64,000 nucleotides of DNA from Luteimonas sp. 8-5 (GTDB taxonomy: Bacteria; Pseudomonadota; Gammaproteobacteria; Xanthomonadales; Xanthomonadaceae). This document shows, piece by piece, positions 54,975 to 60,950 of the stretch (within the stretch, counting starts at the first letter, position 1; each line of letters begins with the position of its first letter). The stretch covers positions 1 through 64,000 of the forward strand of contig NZ_JARUVM010000001.1 of NCBI RefSeq assembly GCF_029763755.1, read 5' to 3'. The notes beneath the pieces were generated by a model that made no database searches, was not told the origin of the DNA, and saw only the letters and a list, made by a program, of their open reading frames with translations. The position numbers and the translations under genes are program-made.

Positions 54975-55044
54975 GCCCCATTCACCGCGCCACCACCGGG
55001 TGCGGGTCAAGCTGGAGGCCAGACCGCGATCCGGGAGGCCTCCC

Positions 55045-55623
55045 ATGACACGCCTCGTACACAAGCGTTTCGTACAGATTGCCGCAACTGCCGCCGTGGC
55101 CCTCGCCGTGGCCGGCTGCGCTTCCATTCCGCGGGTGCAGACCGAGCACGATCCGTCGGTGGACTTCGCCCGCTACCAGACCTATGGCTGGCGCGAGAAG
55201 CCCAGTGGCGGCACGGCGCTGGCCATGCAGCGCATCGTCACCCGAATCGACGAACAGCTGAGGGCGAAGGGCTGGCGCCAGGTCCCGGTCGCCGAGGCCG
55301 ACGTCGTGCTCGCCGCCCACGTCGCCACCCACCAGGAACACCGGCTCGACAGCTTCTACGACGGCCCGATGTGGACCGGATGGGGCTGGTATGGCCCGTG
55401 GGCGTGGGGTCCGCCGATGGGCTATCGCACCCAGGTGACCACCTACACCGTCGGTACCCTGGTCGTCGACATGTTCGACACGAGCACCAAGCGCGCGGTG
55501 TGGAGCGCCGTGGCCGACGACACGGTGCCGAACACGCCGGCGAAGATCAACGCCGACATCGACGCGGCGGTGGCCAGGATGTTCCTCGATTTTCCGCCCG
55601 GCAAAGCGCCCCCCGGATACTGA
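55045..55623 (+). CDS. DUF4136 family lipoprotein
   Basis: 192 aa. The lipobox VAGC (Cys25) ends a 24-residue signal; the start is fixed by GGGAGG six bases before the ATG. After the lipid Cys comes the DUF4136 pattern VDFARYQTYGW, an aromatic Gly-rich loop (WTGWGWYGPWAWGPP) and TLVVDMFDTSTKRAVWSAVADD. Members are envelope lipoproteins of unknown role. It stands alone, 70 bp after purA. Confidence 0.87.
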   Translation: MTRLVHKRFVQIAATAAVALAVAGCASIPRVQTEHDPSVDFARYQTYGWREKPSGGTALAMQRIVTRIDEQLRAKGWRQVPVAEADVVLAAHVATHQEHRLDSFYDGPMWTGWGWYGPWAWGPPMGYRTQVTTYTVGTLVVDMFDTSTKRAVWSAVADDTVPNTPAKINADIDAAVARMFLDFPPGKAPPGY

Positions 55624-55726
55624 GGTCGCGGTCACGATATCGCGTGGACGGGGCAGTATCTGTCCTGCAAGCGTCGCTTCCTGCGTGTAGCTACTTCAAT
55701 GAATCGAAGTCGCACGGAGATAGGGA

Positions 55727-57658
55727 ATGAAGCGATCGGCATGGATGACGCTGGCTCTGGCGCTGGCGCTGGCGCTGGCGTTGGCGTTGGCAGCGGGCGC
55801 CTGCAGCGGTGACAGGAACGGCCAGGAGGCCTCGTTCACCGAAGTCCCGCAAGGCGAATGGGACGCGCTGGTCGGCCAACTGACCACTGCAAGGGACCTG
55901 GACGAAGCAGTGGCCGCAACGCGCGAGATCCTGGCGCGCGGCGGCGTCGCCACCCGCGACGGCGAACGTGAACTGGTCGCCGCGCGTCCACCGGCAGCCT
56001 CGTTCAGCGTGAGTCCGCGGCAAGTCGAGCACATGGCGATGGAGGCGCGCGCGCGTGGTGTGCGCGCACGCCTGGAGGTTGCCGAATTCGCCCACATGCT
56101 CGCTTCCTTCGGCTGGGAGTTCCCCAATGCGAGGTCGCGAGGCGACGCGACGCAGCCGAACCCCGACATCGAGGACGGATACACGCAGGAACGACGTTCC
56201 GGACGGCAACGCGAGCGCATGCAGGCGCGCGAATCCGCGCGCAAGGCGGAGGAGGACGCGTACAAGGTCTGGCAGGCGTCGGTCACCGATGCGCCCAATG
56301 CACGCCATGATGCAGCACGCGCCCGGATCGATGCAGCCAACAAGGCGCTGCGCGCAGCATCCGGCGCCGACTCGAAAGCGGCTGCACGGGTGGAAGTCGA
56401 AGCGGCGCGGGTGGAACTGGCCGCAGCGCGGGACGCTGCAAGGGCCGCGCGGGAGACGCTGCGCGAGCGCCAGGAAGCCCGTGAACGGGAGCGCGATGCC
56501 GTGCGCGAGTCCCAGCGCATGGAGGATCTCTACGCACGCAAAATCGGTCCCGAATACGGCGCGGGCGAGGATTTCCAGGTGGCGCTCGAGCGTTGGGCAC
56601 AGGCGGCGGCGAAAGACCCGGAGGCCGACGCCAGCTTCGTGCCGCTGTTCATCACCGGCATGGCGCGGCTGCAGGATCCGCCGGTCGATCTTGCCGATCC
56701 GCAGCGCCGCGCGCTGGGACGGTCGGGCTCGGACCTCCCGGTGAAGGGGGCCGGCCCTCGCTCCGGCCAGACCCGCCTGAGCCTGCTGGAAATGCAGTTG
56801 ATCATCGCCGCATTCGATCGCAATGCCGGTACGGCGGCCGACAAGGCGCTGACGGCAGCTTTCCACGATGCCGTCGATGGCAAGGCGGAAGCGGTTTCTG
56901 CGGCGCTGGCGCAGGCCCACCGCGTCGTCACGATCGCATCGCTGCAACCGGCTGTTCCACTGGACCTGGACGTCGAACCGGTCAAGGTGCATCGGCCCGT
57001 CGGCGAGGAGTTGCGGGTCCGGTTCGCTGCCGACGCCGACGACAGCGTGCGTGGAAGCGCAAGCTTGCACTGGCGACTGCTTGCCGGCGCCCCGGCGCAC
57101 GCCATCTGGTCGCTGGCCGACAACGACGGCTTCCGGCTCGAGGGCGGCAGCGGCCAATCCGCGGCGCCGGACAAAGGTTATGTCGTCGATGTCCGCCAGG
57201 AAGAAGCTCACCACGGCAGCCAGGCGCGCGGATACGTGACCGCGCGTACTGCTGCGGAAGACGAGGACGCCCCCTCGCTTGAACAGTGGAAGGAAGTCGC
57301 CCACCGCGGCTTCCAGCGCAGCGCCCAGGAGCTGATCGCGATGATGGACGCGCAGCCTCCGCCGCGCGGTTTCCAGCGGTCTCCCGAGGAACTGCTCGCC
57401 ACTGCCGACGACCCGTCCCGCGGTTTCCAGCGTTCGGCCGAAGAGCTGGCGATCGAGGCCGGCTGGCTCAGGGAAATGTCGATGCCCAGGGCCTACGCCA
57501 GCATCGAGGTCGAATACCATTGCGCGAATCCGACCACGATCCATCTCTCTGTCACCGATCCGGTGGCGGACGGCCGCGGGGACGGAGGCGATGCCTGCAC
57601 CTACACGTTCGAAACGCGCGAGGCCTTCGAGCAATGGCGGGAGGCGAACGCCTACTGA
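55727..57658 (+). CDS. Large lipoprotein of unknown function with RGFQRS repeats
   Basis: 643 aa, no family recognised. The signal peptide is MKRSAWMT followed by seven Leu-Ala pairs (9-22) and a likely lipid Cys26 (AGAC). Residues 30-140 are mixed; 150-265 are an Arg/Glu/Ala-rich predicted coiled coil; 275-430 are helical; 430-500 look like a beta domain (LDLDVEPVKVHRPVGEELRV). Residues 527-575 hold three RGFQRS..EL repeats 20 and 18 residues apart. The C-terminal ~65 residues contain two Cys (YHCANPTT, DACTYTF), possibly a disulfide. GC content matches the genome, so it does not look newly acquired. It stands between the DUF4136 lipoprotein and the convergent thioredoxin-like gene. Confidence 0.75.
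   Translation: MKRSAWMTLALALALALALALAAGACSGDRNGQEASFTEVPQGEWDALVGQLTTARDLDEAVAATREILARGGVATRDGERELVAARPPAASFSVSPRQVEHMAMEARARGVRARLEVAEFAHMLASFGWEFPNARSRGDATQPNPDIEDGYTQERRSGRQRERMQARESARKAEEDAYKVWQASVTDAPNARHDAARARIDAANKALRAASGADSKAAARVEVEAARVELAAARDAARAARETLRERQEARERERDAVRESQRMEDLYARKIGPEYGAGEDFQVALERWAQAAAKDPEADASFVPLFITGMARLQDPPVDLADPQRRALGRSGSDLPVKGAGPRSGQTRLSLLEMQLIIAAFDRNAGTAADKALTAAFHDAVDGKAEAVSAALAQAHRVVTIASLQPAVPLDLDVEPVKVHRPVGEELRVRFAADADDSVRGSASLHWRLLAGAPAHAIWSLADNDGFRLEGGSGQSAAPDKGYVVDVRQEEAHHGSQARGYVTARTAAEDEDAPSLEQWKEVAHRGFQRSAQELIAMMDAQPPPRGFQRSPEELLATADDPSRGFQRSAEELAIEAGWLREMSMPRAYASIEVEYHCANPTTIHLSVTDPVADGRGDGGDACTYTFETREAFEQWREANAY
55751..55792 (+). repeat. Seven tandem hexanucleotides (CTGGCG-like) in a signal peptide
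   Basis: Units CTGGCT, four CTGGCG, TTGGCG and TTGGCA run without a break and encode (Leu-Ala)7 in the lipoprotein signal. Gain or loss of a unit would keep the frame but change the hydrophobic core by two residues. Confidence 0.85.
57305..57451 (+). repeat. Three RGFQRS-[AP]-[EQ]-EL peptide repeats
   Basis: RGFQRSAQELIA (residue 527), RGFQRSPEELLA (547) and RGFQRSAEELA (565) are near-identical, separated by short Pro/Asp-rich spacers with periods of 20 and 18 residues. The codons differ between copies (CGCGGCTTCCAGCGC and CGCGGTTTCCAGCG), so the peptide rather than the DNA sequence is conserved. Confidence 0.85.
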
Positions 57659-57665
57659 GGCGATG

Positions 57666-58001
57666 CTACGGGGCCGGTGGGTCGATACGCTCCAGCGCCG
57701 CGCGGATCGACCCTGTGCCCAGGGGGCGCACTACGCGCGCCAGTTCCTCGCCATCGCGAAGGAAGACCAGGGTGGGCCAGAACTTGACCCGGAACGAGCG
57801 GCCCAGCAGCCGTCCCTGGCCGTCCTCCACCTTGATGTGGCGCACGTCCGCATGCGCCCCGAGCGCCGATTCCACCAGCGGCCTCGCGGCTGCGCAGTGT
57901 CCGCACCAGTTGGTACCGAATTCCAGCAGCACCGGGCCGCGCATGGCCTCGATGGCGCTGCGTTCGGGCTGATCGGCGCTATAGGGATTGGGATCGCTCA
58001 T
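57666..58001 (-). CDS. Thioredoxin-like protein with WCGHC active site
   Basis: 111 aa. The thioredoxin fold has LLEFGTNWCGHCAAARPLVE (active site Trp32 to Cys36) and the cis-Pro segment FWPTLVFLRDGEEL. The dipeptide between the cysteines is Gly-His, as in disulfide isomerases, rather than Gly-Pro of reducing thioredoxins, so the redox potential is probably higher. No signal peptide; cytoplasmic. It lies downstream of the TonB receptor on the same strand, and 7 bp from the convergent 643-aa lipoprotein gene. Confidence 0.87.
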   Translation of the reverse strand: MSDPNPYSADQPERSAIEAMRGPVLLEFGTNWCGHCAAARPLVESALGAHADVRHIKVEDGQGRLLGRSFRVKFWPTLVFLRDGEELARVVRPLGTGSIRAALERIDPPAP

Positions 58002-58009
58002 GCACCCAG

Positions 58010-58042
58010 CTTCCACGCCCCCCCGTTCAGGGGGGCGTGAAG
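58010..58042. other. GC-rich stem-loop between the TonB receptor and thioredoxin-like genes
   Basis: CTTCCACGCCCCCC pairs with GGGGGGCGTGAAG, one bulged C, around a CGTTCA loop. It follows the receptor stop by 34 bp in the direction of transcription and precedes the thioredoxin start by 8 bp. No T-run follows in either direction, so it may attenuate or stabilise transcripts rather than terminate. Confidence 0.55.
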
Positions 58043-58076: not shown

Positions 58077-60950
58077 TCAGAGGAAGTTGTATTCGAGCAG
58101 CAGCGTGTAGCTGCGCCCGCGCGGATCGGCGATGCGCGGTTCCCAGCCCGCACCCGCGGCGAAGTCGTTCATGTGCGCGGTGAACGGCGGATCCCTGTCG
58201 AGCAGGTTCTTGATGCCGAACCCGAGCTTGAGGCCGTCGATGCCGGTCCAGGTGATGCTGTAGTTGTACGTGGTGTACGCATCGACCTTGGGGTCCCACG
58301 CCGGCGGGATGTAGGTGCCGTTGGCGACGCTCACCGGCTCCTCGTCCAGGTAGCCATGGCGGTAGAGCTGCATCAGGCTGTGGGTGAAGTTGCCGCGGGT
58401 GTAGGTGAACCCCAGCGTGTGCTTCCAGCGGATGGGCAGGTTGAAGTAGCGCACGTAGGAGCCGACCAGGTTGTCGGTATACGGCAGGGTCTCCAGCGCC
58501 TTGGTCCTGAACAGGTTGGTGTAGCTGCCGTTGAGGTGCAGCAGCCAGCGCCCGCCGGCCAGTTCGCCGGACAGGTTGGAATCGACCTCGACGCCTCGGG
58601 TCAGGCTGCCGCCGGAGTTGATGTAGCGCCGGTCGATCGCGATCACCTGGTTGTTCGCGTCGCGGATCCAGTTCGCCTGGAACACGTCGTAGTACTCGAT
58701 CAGCACTTCGCGCGGCGCGGGGCGGATGGTGTTCTCGCGCTCGATCTCCCACCAGTCCACGCTGATGTTGAAGTTGCCCATGGGCGCATACACGAAGCCG
58801 AAGCTCTTCTGCGTGGATTCCTCCGGCTTCAGGTCTTCCTTGCCGCCGAACAACTCGTCGGGGCGGATGCTCTCGCAACCGGGAGTCGTGGTGTCGGCGA
58901 CGCCGCCGGGGCAGGTGGCCGGGTCGGCGAGGTCGAGGCCGGTGTACTGGACCTCGGACACGCCGTTGAACAGCTGGTTGAACGACGGCACCTTGAAGCC
59001 GGTGCTGTAGGCGCCGCGGAACAGCAGCGATTCGATCGGCTTGAACTTGAACGACACCTTCGGGTTGAAGGTGCTGCCGAAGCCGGTGTAGTCGTCGTAG
59101 CGGCCGGCCAGGGTGACGTCGAAACTGCGGGTCAGCGGCGCCAGCATCTCGACGTAGACCGCGCGGATGTCGCGGCTCACGTTCTCCAGTGCGTTCGCGT
59201 CGTCGAACGGTGCATTGAAGACCGGACGCCCGTTGACGCGGTTGTCGCCTTCGAACCGGAATTCCTCGCGACGCAGGTCGACGCCGGCGGCCATGGCCAT
59301 CGTGCCGCCCGGCAGGTCCAGGCCGATGTCGCCCGACACGCTCGCGTCCAGCGCGGTGACGATCGATTCGCCGCCGTACATCCTCACCCCGCGCGCGGAA
59401 GCCGCCTCGAGCGCGGCCATCGCCTCCGGACTCTGCTCCTGGCCGGGCAACAGGAAGGGATTGAGCAGGCCGCTGCCCAGCACTTCCTGCAGGGCGTCGG
59501 TGTAATGGAAGCCGCTGCCGAGGACCGAATCCGACTTGCTGGAAGCCCGCGACAGGCCGACGTCGTAGCTCCAGTTGCCGATCAGGCCGCCGATGCCGAC
59601 CAGGGCACGGTAGGCGGTGGTGGTGGTCTCGATCTGGCGGGGACCGCAGGCCATGCAGCGCCAGCGGTAGGCGATCCGTTCGCCGTAATTAAGCTGGCCG
59701 GCGCCGAAGTAGTCCGCCAGGGCGTCATAGACCATGTCGTAGGACTCGCCGGTGACCGGATACCAGGTATCCGGTCCGAAAGTGGAGCCGGGCGAGATCT
59801 GGTTGGGCTCGAAGGTCTTGGAGACCTCAACCCTGGAAGCGGACAGCTCGGCATAGGCTTCGTGCACCGAGCCGATCCGGAACGTCGCGCGGCCGACGAA
59901 ATCGATGCTGTCCATGGGCTGCTGGATCACGGCCGCGGCCGGGTAGTCCCAGGCGCAGGCGTAGCGCGATGCCGGGACGTTCCAGATCTGGTATCCGTAC
60001 GGCCCCATGTTGTCGCCGCCGCTCTCGCAACCTTCCGCACCGGGCAGGTTGAGGATGTTGATCGCGGTCATGGTGCCGTTGCCGGCCGGATCGGTCAGCC
60101 CGGCGCCGATCAGGTTGATGTCGGCCTGGGTGCCGGTGCGGTTGAACACCGTGGCGAACGGCGTGCCGCGGGTGTCGGGCGACAGGCCGCGGTCGGGCTG
60201 GAAGGCATTGGAGAAATCGCGGTCGTCGCCGCGCAGGATCGTGTTGCGCTTGACGCTCAGCGTGCCGAAGGCGTTCCAGCCGTCGCGGTCGAGGTCGCCG
60301 TGGCCGAACAGGATGCTGCCGCGATAGATGTTGCCGCCGCCGGCTTCGCTGACGTCGACGAAACCGGTCACCTGCGCGCCCTGGAAATCGCGCCGGGTGA
60401 TGAAGTTGATTACGCCGCCGATGGCGTCGGTGCCGTAGACCGCCGAGGCGCCGTCGCGCAGCACCTCGACCCTGTCGATCGCCGCGAACGGGATCGCGTT
60501 GAGGTCGACCGCGCGGCCCTTCAGGCCATGGGTCGCGACGCGGCGGCCGTTGAGCAGCACCAGGGTGGCGTCGGCACCCTGGCCGCGCAGGTTGGCGCCG
60601 GAGACGCCGTTGTTGCCGCGCTGGTCCTCATGCACGATGCCGCTGTTGCTGGCCAGGTTGTCCGAGCCGTTGCCGGCGACGTTGAGCACCATCAGCAGCT
60701 GTTCGGCCGAGGTGATGCCCTGCTGGTCGATCTCCTCGCGCGTGACCGTGGTGATCGGCAGCGCCTGCTCGACCTCGATGCGGTTGATGCGCGAACCGGT
60801 GACCGTCAACCGGTCCAGGGTCTTGACCTGGTCGTCGGTCTCTTCGGTGTCGGAAGTGGTGCCGGCCTGCTGGGCCATCGCCGGCATCGCAAGGACGGCG
60901 GCAATGGCGAGACACAGGACCCGGGCCTTGCAGGGCTTGGACGCGGTCAT
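58077..60950 (-). CDS. Large TonB-dependent outer-membrane receptor
   Basis: 957 aa. Signal peptide (1-26, ending AMAQ), a TonB-box-like LDRLTVTGSRI (about 45-55), a plug domain (60-175) with ANLRGQGADATLVLLNGRRV and VEVLRDGASAVYGTDAIGGVINFITR, then a long barrel ending YTLLLEYNFL. A Cys-rich loop (RWRCMACGPRQ, ~430) is extracellular by position. This receptor type is expanded in Xanthomonadales and often takes up plant or peptide-derived substrates; the ligand here is unknown. GGGAGG stands six bases before the ATG. It has the same orientation as gcvP with a 75-bp gap. Confidence 0.92.
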   Translation of the reverse strand: MTASKPCKARVLCLAIAAVLAMPAMAQQAGTTSDTEETDDQVKTLDRLTVTGSRINRIEVEQALPITTVTREEIDQQGITSAEQLLMVLNVAGNGSDNLASNSGIVHEDQRGNNGVSGANLRGQGADATLVLLNGRRVATHGLKGRAVDLNAIPFAAIDRVEVLRDGASAVYGTDAIGGVINFITRRDFQGAQVTGFVDVSEAGGGNIYRGSILFGHGDLDRDGWNAFGTLSVKRNTILRGDDRDFSNAFQPDRGLSPDTRGTPFATVFNRTGTQADINLIGAGLTDPAGNGTMTAINILNLPGAEGCESGGDNMGPYGYQIWNVPASRYACAWDYPAAAVIQQPMDSIDFVGRATFRIGSVHEAYAELSASRVEVSKTFEPNQISPGSTFGPDTWYPVTGESYDMVYDALADYFGAGQLNYGERIAYRWRCMACGPRQIETTTTAYRALVGIGGLIGNWSYDVGLSRASSKSDSVLGSGFHYTDALQEVLGSGLLNPFLLPGQEQSPEAMAALEAASARGVRMYGGESIVTALDASVSGDIGLDLPGGTMAMAAGVDLRREEFRFEGDNRVNGRPVFNAPFDDANALENVSRDIRAVYVEMLAPLTRSFDVTLAGRYDDYTGFGSTFNPKVSFKFKPIESLLFRGAYSTGFKVPSFNQLFNGVSEVQYTGLDLADPATCPGGVADTTTPGCESIRPDELFGGKEDLKPEESTQKSFGFVYAPMGNFNISVDWWEIERENTIRPAPREVLIEYYDVFQANWIRDANNQVIAIDRRYINSGGSLTRGVEVDSNLSGELAGGRWLLHLNGSYTNLFRTKALETLPYTDNLVGSYVRYFNLPIRWKHTLGFTYTRGNFTHSLMQLYRHGYLDEEPVSVANGTYIPPAWDPKVDAYTTYNYSITWTGIDGLKLGFGIKNLLDRDPPFTAHMNDFAAGAGWEPRIADPRGRSYTLLLEYNFL

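Follow-up and report, generated by a model that had tools for sequence, protein, structure and literature searches.

Families of proteins built from short units in tandem are known, TPR, Sel1, pentapeptide and similar repeats among them. The envelope inputs of systems that combine an ECF sigma factor with a Hanks-type kinase are, for their part, poorly understood. According to PMC13147305, a Hanks-type kinase of Xanthomonas citri phosphorylates the ECF43 sigma factor EcfK, and two ECF43 sigma/Hanks-type kinase systems are named, EcfK-PknS (Xanthomonas citri) and EcfP-PknT (Vibrio parahaemolyticus).

Here we describe a triple repeat of RGFQRS[AP][EQ]EL near the C-terminus of a putative 643-aa lipoprotein encoded in the window, by which we mean the whole 64-kb stretch of DNA that was analysed. 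The repeat resembles the TPR, Sel1 and pentapeptide-type families in its short repeated units and their predicted helical character; it differs from them in having only three units, of 18-20 aa, and in lacking any match to a curated model (0 Pfam and 0 NCBIfam matches to the 643-aa protein at E<=10). The features of the gene are:

55727-57658, + strand: putative 643-aa lipoprotein gene, without family assignment (open reading frame and family-model searches)
55727-55804, + strand: signal peptide MKRSAWMTLALALALALALALAAGAC with lipobox-like AGAC at residues 23-26
56162-56611, + strand: long helical segment, possibly coiled-coil, residues about 146-295 (AlphaFold2 helices)
57275-57466, + strand: expanded linker, S517 to W580, 64 residues, against 27-28 in relatives (alignments)
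57305-57364, + strand: repeat unit 1, RGFQRSAQELIAMMDAQPPP, 20 aa, core 57305-57334
57365-57418, + strand: repeat unit 2, RGFQRSPEELLATADDPS, 18 aa, core 57365-57394
57419-57466, + strand: repeat unit 3, RGFQRSAEELAIEAGW, core 57419-57448
57458-57523, + strand: conserved C-terminal stretch AGWLREMSMPRAYASIEVEYHC, residues 578-599 (four-row alignment)

The N-terminus reads MKRSAWMT(LA)n..AGAC, in which (LA)n is hydrophobic and the lipobox-like AGAC, with Cys26, is a regular-expression match alone; a lipoprotein signal was found, and we regard the protein as a putative bacterial lipoprotein whose lipidation is predicted. A hexanucleotide array, CGCTGG in 8.5 copies (55749-55800), underlies the (LA)n, and slippage of this array could make the length of the signal peptide variable. 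Nearly the whole gene is spanned by an antisense open reading frame of 647 aa with a TTG start (55691-57634, - strand), likely a by-product of GC-rich codons. Upstream lies a DUF4136 lipoprotein gene (55000-55623), and downstream a convergent thioredoxin-like gene (57666-58016) is followed by a TonB-dependent receptor (58077-60950); these three were the window neighbours matched to Pfam. The proteins farther upstream we take to be MiaA, Hfq, HflX, HflK, HflC and PurA, which they resemble. The 643-aa protein had no match among PHROGs or PADLOC models at E<=0.1, none among plasmids and phages (at the protein level) or viral contigs, and nothing below E 0.29 among solved structures.

The triple repeat exceeds chance. 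The earlier note on this DNA had observed three copies spaced by 20 and 18 residues, and this is confirmed: the motif begins at residues 527, 547 and 565 (57305, 57365 and 57419), where it reads RGFQRSAQEL, RGFQRSPEEL and RGFQRSAEEL in that order, with start-to-start spacings of 60 and 54 nt, that is, 20 and 18 residues. All three copies keep S-x-x-E and are set between Pro/Asp-rich spacers. A degenerate DNA pattern for RGFQRS occurred three times in the window, each time inside the repeat, compared to a mean of 0.02 in 100 shuffled windows, none of which reached three. In the protein, 8 pairs of 10-mers (overlapping pairs counted) were at least 8/10 identical and at most 80 aa apart; 60 of 60 shuffled proteins contained no such pair. 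Apart from the (LA)n signal peptide, no exact 6-mer recurred except RGFQRS (three times) and the overlapping GFQRSA, and among 12 other window proteins a recurring 6-mer was seen in one, where it is present twice.

The three copies are written in different codons. Across copies 1, 2 and 3 the glycine is GGC, GGT and GGT, an arginine CGC, CGG and CGT, and the serine AGC, TCT and TCG; in 11 other window genes the shares of GGT, CGT and TCT within their respective codon families are 6.7%, 5.3% and 0.3%. Nucleotide differences between the 10-codon cores, counted in synonymous against residue-changing codons, stood at 6:2, 5:2 and 4:1, and the spacers between copies, unlike the cores, have diverged. 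Identical peptide with differing codons means that the repeat is not a fresh duplication. One could propose that three similar 14-17 nt strings, which do underlie the motif copies, act as a DNA- or RNA-level element (a binding site or a regulatory RNA) and are in frame by coincidence; however, the third positions vary while the peptide is constant, a degenerate RGFQR-coding pattern had 9 occurrences across the genome (2.5 Mb), of which 3 lie in the lipoprotein gene, versus 2 for the reversed control, and the window gave 0 Rfam matches at gathering scores, so that we consider such an element extremely improbable. Five of the other six RGFQR-coding strings of the genome were examined; all five are single copies and none is followed by Ser.

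A functionless duplication, in which gene conversion kept the units similar without selection on the peptide, is a more serious alternative, if rather an unlikely one. It would fit a repeat found in one genome only, and a third-position GC of 0.79 in the lipoprotein gene versus 0.87-0.94 in the DUF4136 gene, purA and hflK (0.83-0.86 in three relatives), which suggests relaxed or foreign evolution. Against it, the codons differ, including AGC versus TCN serine, with the peptide unchanged, and simulated random substitution yielded equally few residue changes with P values of 0.0006-0.017 (three pairs, both directions), values that are optimistic in that the 10-codon core was picked for its conservation. 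The motif peptide thus appears to be kept by selection within the 643-aa protein, and with that reservation about the core both the diverged codons and the simulation bear out the earlier note, which had read the conserved peptide and its differing codons as selection on the protein.

We found four relatives of the protein: two paralogues in the Lysobacteraceae MAG FW602_bin.31 (E-values 1.2e-49 and 8.5e-40), one protein in Luteimonas cucumeris CGMCC 1.10821 (4.4e-46), and a C-terminal half in genome G653, a truncated form from a different family than Luteimonas cucumeris. Matches to the single protein were obtained in 2 of 60 relatives and 3 of 395 family genomes (own genome counted in). A profile search matched 3 of 398 genomes of the order, its own among them, and 1 of 4 from the genus to which the Luteimonas cucumeris relative belongs; for G653 the figures were 1 of 45 in its genus and 1 of 233 in its family. 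These genome samples overlap one another, and the best 3, 2 and 4 first-look candidates per genome were scored in the 395-family, 398-order and 233-family searches, a depth at which distant relatives may be missed. A profile scan of genome contigs gave 3 loci, taken to be the two of FW602_bin.31 and the one of Luteimonas cucumeris, where a prior non-profile scan had given 0. Judged from these searches, the protein family is a rare, patchily distributed orphan.

The three full-length relatives are 31-38% identical to the window protein, and the comparison of orthologues is accordingly one of distant proteins. They align with it over most of its length and carry the invariant residues of the family, which within residues 578-599 are G579, W580, P587, A589, E596, H598 and C599 (four-row alignment). 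Common to all are an LARGG.AT.DGE stretch, an Ala/Arg-rich helical middle, a PLF...MARLQ block and a GW...E.HC end. The window protein is set apart by a longer C-terminal tail and by two gaps, one of about 50 residues surrounding the CADIK segment of the relatives and one of about 40 residues before a WEIRP-like strand; where it has a lipobox, the Luteimonas cucumeris protein has what reads as a hydrophobic N-terminal anchor. A weak PADLOC match of the Luteimonas cucumeris relative (PbeC, E 0.018) lies across the helical middle and was set aside as compositional; the window protein is without a PADLOC match.

A stretch of about 8 kb at and beyond purA was inspected in Luteimonas cucumeris and in 7 genomes from the same genus as the window, and none of the 8 had a copy of the lipoprotein gene near purA at E<=1e-5. 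DUF4136 was present in three of these stretches (G002, G005 and FW602_bin.31), and beyond purA lay gcvP in G002 and G005 and a TonB receptor in FW602_bin.31, both of whose family copies are situated away from purA. The other five held purA alone among six genes sought; there the order differs or lies outside the stretch. Absence near purA and rarity are as expected for an accessory gene.

RGFQRS was found in none of the four relatives, whose best 10-mer match to RGFQRSAEEL is 4/10, and the repeat is therefore not a family trait. The earlier note had held that a repeat missing from orthologues would be a chance duplication in this strain only; it is indeed missing, as far as four distant relatives allow one to say, but given the codon divergence between the copies, a chance duplication is a poor fit. 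The linker of the window protein exceeds those of the relatives by 36-37 residues, close to units 1 and 2 together (20+18 = 38), and the repeats fall between P516 and G579-W580, positions common to all four aligned rows. G566, within unit 3, is an invariant column as well, and unit 3 continues into AGW, the anchor of the alignment to the relatives.

The possibility that the repeat is homologous to the linker of the relatives was considered and rejected as unproven: without the AGW anchor, 178, 1292, 1779 and 1118 of 2000 shuffles equalled the alignment score, and with the anchor included 122-302 of 2000 reached it. A likeness of SPEELLA to SPSSLIA, and of S-x8-GW, had been noted by eye and is unsupported by shuffles beyond the anchor. 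Similarly, GFSEM.. and GMSDI.. of the relatives had looked by eye like a two-unit repeat; 450-1821 of 5000 shuffles scored as well, and no internal repeat in the relatives' linker was significant. An ancestral unit is therefore unproven.

We also searched for the motif elsewhere. In its own genome, a protein search at E<=10 brought out no second RGFQRS-repeat protein; the one further match, C116 (E 0.33), reads AGFEGTFQEF and belongs to an unrelated open frame of 664 residues, presumably a DUF885-type peptidase by its resemblance. Among 395 family genomes, 45 (own included) had an RGFQRS match at E<=0.1 per genome, near the expected 395 x 0.1 = 39.5, and these matches were taken collectively as chance; the best beyond the own genome had E 0.0035 and 36% identity. 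The search for RGFQRS repeats in Xanthomonadales that the earlier note had called for, here covering 395 family genomes, thus returned no further RGFQRS-repeat protein above chance.

These results weigh against the suggestion that RGFQRS[AP][EQ]EL acts as a multivalent short linear motif for docking to a partner in the envelope, with avidity raised by its three copies. The identity of all six RGFQRS residues in three copies despite codon differences speaks for docking, as do the regular spacing and the Pro/Asp-rich spacers. We nevertheless hold it to be distinctly unlikely, given that the motif is in none of the four relatives, that no second repeat protein stood out in the own genome or, above chance, in the 395 family genomes, and that RGFQRS was not found in the literature searched. 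The same spacing, with two Arg per motif, might indicate a processing or released-peptide array in which RGFQRS forms protease sites between Pro/Asp spacers. Here the conserved C-terminal stretch with its invariant residues comes after the repeat, which places the array inside the chain, and we know of no bacterial precursor of such a released-peptide design; this reading is highly improbable. The repeated docking or processing motif proposed in the earlier note has accordingly gained no support beyond the repeat itself.

The explanation that we prefer, and to which we would give an even chance, is that the linker has been lengthened by extra helix-turn units, the array serving as a structural spacer or a small helical pack. 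The ancestral state would have been a short linker between a middle beta-rich part and the conserved C-terminal GW...EYHC strand, which in this bacterium's lineage would have gained roughly two additional copies of a unit of 18-20 residues. Each unit would comprise a turn (RGFQ), a helix N-cap formed by Ser and the Glu that follows it at the third residue (S-A-Q-E, S-P-E-E and S-A-E-E), the arrangement known as a capping box, and a short helix ([AP][EQ]EL...), with units 1 and 2 ending in a Pro/Asp breaker; the motif would be retained because it determines where the helices start and how these starts pack. Counted in favour of the helix-turn units were the length excess near two units, the insertion between common positions, the kept S-x-x-E, the predicted helices, the diverged spacers and the rarity of the family. 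Counted against them were the linker homology that shuffles did not support, low pLDDT, and caps absent at units 1 and 3. A helix cap alone fails to explain the identity of all six RGFQRS residues.

The structural evidence comes from two AlphaFold2 models, one of the full length and one of residues 405-643, with 4 sequences each. Mean pLDDT was 41.6 and 43.2, respectively, too low to support a fold search. The full-length model has helices at 146-213, 217-272 and 275-295 (pLDDT of 34-71 in 10-residue blocks), on which the possible coiled coil is based. In the repeat region it draws helices at 518-542, 553-558 and 563-577 (block pLDDT 34-44); the model of residues 405-643 draws them at 518-542, 553-560 and 567-577, and there the repeat ranks with the better-modelled parts (43-67). 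The helix of unit 2 begins directly after S552, at low confidence, and in neither model is a cap drawn at unit 1, where Ser lies within a long helix, or at unit 3, where the helix begins before Ser. The structure prediction suggested in the earlier note has thus yielded helices in the repeat region, with low confidence and with a cap-like start at unit 2 only.

Further indications come from the gene order around the relatives. In Luteimonas cucumeris, genes for an ECF sigma factor, a kinase-TPR protein (925 aa), a secreted-looking protein, the family protein, a carboxypeptidase-regulatory-like protein and a YadA-like protein follow one another on one strand (L020 2888-12799). The sigma factor matches PF07638 and TIGR02999 (162.9 bits, cut-off 126.15); the carboxypeptidase-regulatory-like protein scores 29.6 bits, below the Pfam cut-off of 32.3, and the secreted-looking protein has no Pfam match. 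In G653, a TIGR02999-like sigma start of 37-38 residues is joined, without a change of frame, to a C-terminal half of the family protein (L016 1495-2541, - strand, equal to L030 7621-8667), followed by a carboxypeptidase-regulatory-like protein 77% identical to the Luteimonas cucumeris copy (L030 6819-8667). The sigma start is 86% identical to that of Luteimonas cucumeris over 37 aa and the family protein 64% over 258 aa, and the fusion looks like a large deletion of everything between, relative to Luteimonas cucumeris. Cluster parts common to these two genomes of different families may point to horizontal transfer.

The Luteimonas cucumeris sigma factor and kinase had no match in the 64-kb window, between 60 and 79 kb of the window's contig, or in the stretches surrounding either FW602_bin.31 copy; sigma-kinase pairs are encoded on other contigs of the window's genome and also occur elsewhere in FW602_bin.31. 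Adjacency to both sigma factor and kinase was found, then, in Luteimonas cucumeris and not for the window gene or the FW602_bin.31 copies, and G653 keeps the sigma fragment only. The Luteimonas cucumeris gene resembles the ECF43 systems in its same-strand position near a sigma factor and a kinase, the ECF43 membership being putative; the abstract and introduction of PMC13147305 mention no such lipoprotein. From these neighbours, and by analogy with the X. citri kinase-EcfK system, a role of the family in ECF sigma/Hanks-kinase envelope signalling is a possible but weak guess. Were the family part of such a sensing system, RGFQRS could be a lineage-specific multivalent docking motif whose triplication changed the avidity of a sensor for its partner, a combination that we judge very unlikely.

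Taken together, these results describe a modest example of a short unit that multiplied within what would be a poorly known envelope protein, with its peptide kept. The more useful by-product is the rare protein family itself, which in Luteimonas cucumeris is linked to an ECF sigma/Hanks-kinase cluster.
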